A DNA stretch of 64,000 nt, from NCBI GenBank assembly GCA_024279915.1, contig JAJRRB010000021.1:1-64000 (forward strand), written 5' to 3'. The DNA is from Deltaproteobacteria bacterium. Its GTDB lineage: Bacteria; Desulfobacterota; Desulfuromonadia; Desulfuromonadales; BM103. The position numbers and the translations under genes are program-made. The notes below the pieces were generated by a model. That model was given only the letters and a program-made list of their open reading frames with translations, was not told the origin of the DNA and searched no databases. Positions 52,304 to 53,408 of this stretch are shown piece by piece. The number at the start of each line of letters is the position of its first letter. Positions within the stretch are counted from its first letter, which is position 1.

Positions 52304-52768
52304 ATGGGACTCATTGACGTGCAAAAGACGATCAAGGACTCCATCCAGACTGAAAAAGACGCCATGGATTACTATAAATATGGTGCGGAGCGTATGGCTG
52401 AAGATAAGGCACGCCGGACATTTGAGATTCTTGCTCGGGAAGAATATCAACACGCTGAATCTTTCTACCGGATCTATTCCGGGGATGACATTCCTTCCTT
52501 CCAGAAATTTATGGATGCACCCCCGAATACTGAATCAAGTTGGTGGAAGAAACTACAGGGCCTTTTGGTTCAAGATTTTGACGAACGCAAAGCTCTCGAG
52601 TTGGCAATTGAGCAGGAAGACGCGCTGGAAAAAAGCCTCCGTGAGATGGCAGCCAAGATCGATGACCCTGATATTGCGAGAATCTATCTGGCGAACGCCA
52701 CCTCGACTCACAACCACTTGGAACTGGTAGAAGAAGATTATAGGGCCATGTTAGGTATGAGTGGCTGA
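52304..52768 (+). CDS. Ferritin-like/rubrerythrin-family protein
   Basis: IQTEKDAMDYYKYGAERMAEDKARRTFEILAREEYQHAESF. Confidence 0.85.
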   Translation: MGLIDVQKTIKDSIQTEKDAMDYYKYGAERMAEDKARRTFEILAREEYQHAESFYRIYSGDDIPSFQKFMDAPPNTESSWWKKLQGLLVQDFDERKALELAIEQEDALEKSLREMAAKIDDPDIARIYLANATSTHNHLELVEEDYRAMLGMSG

Positions 52769-52796: not shown

Positions 52797-52834
52797 CAAA
52801 AAGGCCGTTCCCTAGTGGGGGCGGCCTTTTTTGT
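52797..52834 (+). terminator. Intrinsic terminator after ferritin-like gene
   Basis: aaaaaggccgttccctagtgggggcggcctttttt. Confidence 0.8.
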
Positions 52835-52861: not shown

Positions 52862-52967
52862 GCAAAAATTCGTCCGACAAGGCGTAGTGCTTTTTCAGGG
52901 GTGAAGGCATACACGGTATGTCGAAGTCCTGAAAAAACGCTGCAACGCAGTAGGGCGGACTTTTTGC
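52862..52967. mobile_element. 106-bp palindromic REP/MITE-like element, type F
   Basis: gcaaaaattcgtccgacaaggcgtagtgctttttcagg... / ...cctgaaaaaacgctgcaacgcagtagggcggactttttgc; apex catac-acg-gtatg at centre. Confidence 0.65.
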
Positions 52968-52975
52968 AACGCCAT

Positions 52976-53122
52976 TTAGTTGAACATTTTAGCGCCGAGG
53001 TATGCCAGTGCTGGCCAGGCGATCAAGATGGCAGAGACAAAGGCGAATACGCCGAGGACGCTCATGATGGCAACAGTGTAGCTGGCTTTGACATTATTGA
53101 TGACGTTAGATGCGGTTTTCAT
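52976..53122 (-). CDS. 48-aa small membrane protein, tandem paralogue 1 (not in ORF track)
   Basis: MKTASNVINNVKASYTVAIMSVLGVFAFVSAILIAWPALAYLGAKMFN; SD TAGGAGA. Confidence 0.8.
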   Translation of the reverse strand: MKTASNVINNVKASYTVAIMSVLGVFAFVSAILIAWPALAYLGAKMFN

Positions 53123-53182
53123 GTCGATTCTCCTATAGTTTCTCTCACTCAACTGAGAGGGTTGGCTGTTGAAGGCAAGATC

Positions 53183-53329
53183 CTAGTTAAAAAGCTTCGA
53201 CCCAATATAGGCAAGAGCTGGCCAGGCGATCAGTACGGCTGAGATGAAAGCAAAGACACCGAGTGCGGCAATAACGATAACCAGGTAACTACTTTTTACA
53301 TTATCCATAAAGCGACTTTGAGTTTTCAT
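53183..53329 (-). CDS. 48-aa small membrane protein, tandem paralogue 2 (not in ORF track)
   Basis: MKTQSRFMDNVKSSYLVIVIAALGVFAFISAVLIAWPALAYIGSKLFN; SD AGGAGG; 31/48 identical to paralogue 1 by eye. Confidence 0.82.
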   Translation of the reverse strand: MKTQSRFMDNVKSSYLVIVIAALGVFAFISAVLIAWPALAYIGSKLFN

Positions 53330-53379
53330 AATGTCCTCCTGTCAATTTGTTGGTAAGTTGTTCCTCTTTCTTGATTAAA

Positions 53380-53408
53380 GTTTTAACATTAAGAGGATCT
53401 CATGTCAA
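53380..53408 (-). promoter_or_regulatory. Candidate sigma70-like promoter for the 48-aa pair (TTGACA - 17 nt - TAAAAC)
   Basis: Revcomp reads ttgaca tgagatcctcttaatgt taaaac with AT-rich sequence upstream. Confidence 0.4.

Follow-up and report, generated by a model that had tools for sequence, protein, structure and literature searches.

The minus strand of the 64,000-nucleotide stretch analysed here (the window) carries a tandem pair of genes, A and B, each encoding a small membrane protein of 48 aa; both are genuine genes overlooked by ordinary gene finding. With about even confidence, we propose that their family, which has not been described before, consists of inner-membrane proteins with a single helix that bends at a highly conserved Trp-Pro, and that these proteins serve as small accessory subunits, for assembly or stabilisation, of inner-membrane menaquinol:cytochrome oxidoreductases of extracellular electron transfer. 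The proposed role is based on gene neighbourhood: genes of the family, which occurs in metal-respiring Desulfuromonadia, usually lie beside those for ImcH and CbcL, the inner-membrane enzymes at the first step of electron export, and therefore probably encode small helper subunits of the electron-export machinery. Extracellular respiration requires ImcH and CbcL at different redox potentials (PMC6295460), and in the literature considered they are treated as stand-alone cytochromes (PMC6295460, PMC9129911). A term search of these two papers did not turn up a small subunit, and a literature search for a small membrane protein with a Geobacter quinol oxidase, confined to papers accessible without subscription, returned nothing. 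A conserved small-protein family at ImcH and CbcL loci would add an unrecognised component.

Identification of the gene pair

The pair and the ribosome-binding site region of its first gene are located as follows.

53183..53329, minus strand: gene A, first of the pair, encoding a small membrane protein of 48 aa (ORF, homologues, purifying selection, predicted kinked helix)
52976..53122, minus strand: gene B, second of the pair, encoding a small membrane protein of 48 aa (ORF, 31/48 identical to A)
53330..53343, minus strand: ribosome-binding site region of A (AGGAGG)

Both ORFs comprise 147 nt, stop included, and their position, length and translations are exactly those given in the initial annotation, whose estimate by eye of 31 identical residues out of 48 agrees with a computed identity of 65%. 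The good Shine-Dalgarno (SD) sequences ascribed to them are AGGAGG for A (GACAGGAGGACATT-ATG) and AGGAGA for B (ATAGGAGAATCGAC-ATG), each at a conserved ATG. In the ORF listing, B appeared in a longer form from an upstream TTG, but the start conserved among relatives is the ATG with the AGGAGA SD. Chance ORFs had been judged very unlikely, and the pair indeed lies far beyond chance because the same genome (G000) contains a second tandem pair (G000:C75:113889-114263), homologues occur in dozens of genomes, and the genes are under purifying selection. Relatives, in which homologues had been suggested as a check, carry the pair and sometimes a triple, with homologues of A that are 77–98% identical and with SD and WP motif conserved.

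Both A and B are under strong purifying selection. Within the window's own taxonomic family (f1), the median pairwise pN/pS was 0.16 for A genes and 0.18 for B genes, and not near 1, the value named beforehand as speaking against the pair. Between A and B of the window, synonymous sites are near saturation and pN is 0.23.

Distribution and structure of the family

A single-sequence search with a threshold of E ≤ 1 gave a match in 57 of 98 genomes, the weakest being chance matches. By profile search, the family was detected in 77 of the 277 genomes of the class (E ≤ 0.01) and in 49 of 136 genomes of the order (E ≤ 1e-5). When 396 genomes were searched phylum-wide, full-length matches were obtained in members of the class only; two matches outside it were partial ones within longer ORFs (326 and 752 aa) and were put down to chance. 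Among the genomes searched, the family is restricted to Desulfuromonadia.

Common to the members are one hydrophobic helix and the motif (A/S)WPAL(A/S)(Y/H)(I/L)..K, variants of which occur in distant members. The single hydrophobic span described in the initial annotation was found by hydropathy in all 97 collected members, and AlphaFold2 predicted one long helix (mean pLDDT 84) with a break at residue 35, just before W36-P37. The median net charge of the 97 members is +1 on both sides of the span; topology is therefore not fixed by charge. No Pfam or NCBIfam model covered the family when 33 members were searched, which gave a few weak matches to unrelated families (best E 0.006), and a PDB search with the peptides found no solved structure covering it.

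Promoter block and flanking elements

Three further features of the window belong to the surroundings of the pair.

53380..53408, minus strand: promoter-like element TTGACAT...TTAATGTTAAAAC, conserved in an alignment of 21 units taken from different loci
52798..52831, no strand assigned: bidirectional terminator hairpin (near-identical to the one that follows NrfD at the ImcH locus of G000)
52304..52768, plus strand: rubrerythrin-like ferritin-fold protein, convergent neighbour (Pfam Rubrerythrin, E 6e-8; cluster c6, 11 loci)

Upstream of A, the letters of the promoter proposed earlier are present, namely TTGACA (53408-53403) and TAAAAC (53385-53380) separated by a 17-bp spacer, although a generic consensus promoter scan of the window did not list them. 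They form part of a longer block, TTGACATGA...TTAATGTTAAAA...TTTAATCAA, which is nearly invariant in 21 units, and across these different sites and genomes TTGACAT and TTAATGTTAA hardly vary. Inside the block (53380-53408), TTGACAT and ATGTTAA form an imperfect inverted repeat; this dyad is therefore possibly an operator for some regulator.

The terminator beside the pair and that of the NrfD gene at the ImcH locus of G000 match over 47 bp with 96% identity. A hairpin repeat of about 105 bp begins right after the stop codon of B (52868-52975) and looks like a dispersed repeat element; by eye, a relative lies upstream of ImcH at locus L036 (10334-10475), and this copy matches L035:7398-7539 at 91%. 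Of the neighbours in the window, only the rubrerythrin-like gene recurs widely. It is convergent, confined in f1 to the secondary (rbr) site of the pair, and marks this site in the window's lineage. As functional partners, the genes around the pair in the window (rubrerythrin-like, CxxCxxCC protein, PAS and HD genes) were weighed and dropped.

Cytochrome and quinol oxidase genes beside the family

For the analysis of neighbourhoods, loci were picked by peptide score alone, blind to cytochromes, and a multihaem neighbour was defined as a gene with at least five CxxCH motifs; 20 regions of 20 kb, placed by hand in genomes of the study set, served as controls. Outside f1, a multihaem gene was located within 1.5 kb of a member in 24 of 29 genomes from 12 families (24 of 39 loci), and within 4 kb in 26 of 29 genomes from 13 families. 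None of the 20 control regions had a gene with at least five haem motifs. Counted by genome (24/29 vs 0/20), Fisher's test gives p ~2e-9, an exact value not to be leaned on because the controls were a small, hand-placed sample and related genomes do not count as independent. About 40% of the loci outside f1 have no multihaem gene nearby, and the same is true of both pairs in G000.

Pfam and motif tests identified among the neighbours an operon encoding an NrfD-type subunit (PF03916), a 4Fe-4S protein and a tetrahaem cytochrome, and also a NapC/NirT-type octahaem cytochrome. Cluster c2 was named ImcH because it fits the published definition of three N-terminal TM helices, an adjoining CX3CH and five to nine CX2CH motifs (PMC6295460): three such helices, CX3CH and five CX2CH were present in 15 of 15 long members. 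Cluster c4 was assigned to CbcL, with an N-terminal multihaem part bearing nine CX2CH, a C-terminal TM b-type region and a weak Ni_hydr_CYTB match; these neighbours are 57–66% identical across families. In Geobacteraceae-like genomes, the peptide gene is co-directional with CbcL and located two genes upstream, and in some genomes of families f5 and f8 it is directly upstream. In f1, f2 and f10, the peptide genes occupy the interval from NrfD to ImcH; they are on the opposite strand, diverge from ImcH and lie outside the operon.

Further genes were observed at the CbcL loci. A protein of about 250 aa (cluster c21; L107:9914-10672, L058:12338-13135 and others) is conserved between the peptide gene and CbcL; it begins, as judged by eye, with a zinc-ribbon, transposase-like DNA-binding part and is a candidate regulator of CbcL. 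Clusters c22 and c31 (L066:9794-10150, L058, L062, L056) comprise small soluble proteins beside peptide genes upstream of CbcL, one of which weakly matches the C-terminal part of MrpORP.

In the order, f1 excluded, the peptide shows a positive though modest co-occurrence with ImcH (18/27 vs 29/87; odds ratio 4, p = 0.003, no phylogenetic correction). CbcL is present in 215 of the 277 genomes of the class, and many CbcL-bearing genomes, whole genera among them, have no detectable peptide; a search around 18 CbcL genes in peptide-negative genomes revealed nothing resembling it. The peptide is therefore not an obligatory subunit, and this role at CbcL was rejected.

Proposed role of the peptides

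The guess of an accessory subunit made in the initial annotation has gained support that is positional, from the ImcH, CbcL and NrfD neighbours at other loci. The putative partners of such subunits are ImcH, the adjoining NrfD-FeS-tetrahaem module, the NapC-type octahaem cytochrome and CbcL. The peptides would bind neighbouring membrane subunits via the AWPALAY.G.K end of the helix, and copies at other sites, for instance the window's pair, would supply the same function in trans. With several different large partners, a single binding surface is less obvious. The position outside the operon at ImcH-NrfD clusters and the loci lacking a multihaem neighbour, among them both pairs of G000, likewise speak against this role. 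More tentatively, we suggest that the peptides are paired subunits common to the high-potential (ImcH) and low-potential (CbcL) menaquinol oxidases, exchangeable and assembling or tuning the complexes, with copies kept identical by gene conversion.

The placement of the genes bears on two other readings. As regulatory peptides, A and B would switch the activity, stability or turnover of ImcH and CbcL according to redox potential and would not be structural subunits. That members adjoin oxidases of both the high- and the low-potential pathway fits such a switch, as does separate transcription at the ImcH site, where the genes are on the opposite strand and have their own conserved promoter block; purifying selection and the co-directional arrangement with CbcL, however, suit a subunit equally well, and a regulatory role is itself deduced from placement, so that we regard it as rather unlikely. 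It is likewise improbable that the family corresponds to YohP-like small membrane proteins of the stress response, which alter the fluidity of the membrane or the proton motive force, or restrain respiration, and are not subunits of a complex. Length, the single helix, the lack of other domains and the multiple dispersed copies would all agree with this (PMC12719787), and many copies stand alone, but the strong enrichment beside quinol oxidase genes in 12 families and the conserved WPAL(A/S)(Y/H) motif, which suggests specific contact, argue against it.

Copies at several sites in the family of the window

Several f1 genomes have both the ImcH site and the rubrerythrin site occupied. In genome G012, a unit of 531 bp is 100% identical at the two sites with unrelated flanks, and in G003 and G001 the same comparison of the two sites gives 94% and 97%. 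Between sites within these three genomes, A genes are 99–100% and B genes 93–100% identical, while the values for the same site between the genomes are 81–85% for A and 78–83% for B. Occupation of both sites with copies alike within a genome points to concerted evolution, which would most simply be explained by gene conversion. At the ImcH site of G006 and G007, a single hybrid gene with an A-like start and a B-like end was found.

In G000, NrfD directly adjoins ImcH (G000:C68:3706-6680), and the pair is missing from this site. This empty site looks like a deletion between GCCTTTTTT repeats and not like a target that was never filled. At the ImcH site of G014 and G005, A survives only as decayed remnants, and in all three genomes intact pairs persist elsewhere. 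Such loss or decay next to intact pairs at other positions suggests that the site between ImcH and NrfD is most likely the ancestral site of the pair in f1 and that genomes lacking this copy seem to obtain the function from copies at other sites, in agreement with action in trans.

Tandem duplications of the whole pair were seen at G007:C88:1-4324 (L039), where a copy of 1.5 kb is 99.9% identical, and at G014:C34 (L042), where the copies are about 1 kb apart. Peptide units often lie at contig ends (G008, G009, G015, G018, G019, G054), a pattern expected where near-identical copies interrupt metagenome assembly; counts of copies in metagenome-assembled genomes are therefore lower bounds. The pair thus represents a small gene pair that evolves in concert across distant sites and probably breaks metagenome assemblies at its copies.

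The multiplicity of copies touches on two remaining explanations. Type I toxin-like hydrophobic peptides in tandem arrays would also be small, hydrophobic and multicopy and would show recombination between copies, yet the family has a conserved motif at the helix's C-terminal end and a respiratory neighbourhood throughout the class, which make this very unlikely. A selfish or mobile cassette of about 450–540 bp that is merely common near cytochrome genes is equally far from probable and was rejected as the main account on comparison of boundaries: the identical units of G012, the variation of sites in close relatives and the tandem duplications in G007 and G014 favour it, but the unit has no transposase and no obvious terminal repeat, and two occupied sites common to different genera, the deletion-like empty ImcH site of G000, decayed remnants at that same site in other genomes, and low pN/pS speak against it.

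Comparison with known systems

The YohP-type stress proteins (PMC12719787) are likewise tiny single-helix membrane proteins; the genomic setting of A and B differs from theirs, and in the Pfam search similarity to YohP was limited to one weak isolated match (E 0.084) in 1 of 33 members. With regard to ImcH and CbcL of Geobacter (PMC6295460, PMC9129911), it is the neighbour proteins that match the published features, and these are putative partners of the peptides, not relatives. The closest parallels in style are CydX and CioY, subunits of bd-type quinol oxidases, which are also small, consist of one helix, are encoded beside a membrane quinol oxidase gene and have escaped annotation; conservation of Trp, Pro and Tyr is reported for CioY homologues (PMC11955535). 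The A/B family has no sequence match to them, with no CydX-type Pfam or NCBIfam model matched by any of 33 members, its recurrent neighbours are ImcH, CbcL, NrfD and NapC-type genes, and it differs in its tandem copies at multiple sites. By analogy, A and B can be described as CydX-like in style and not as homologous.
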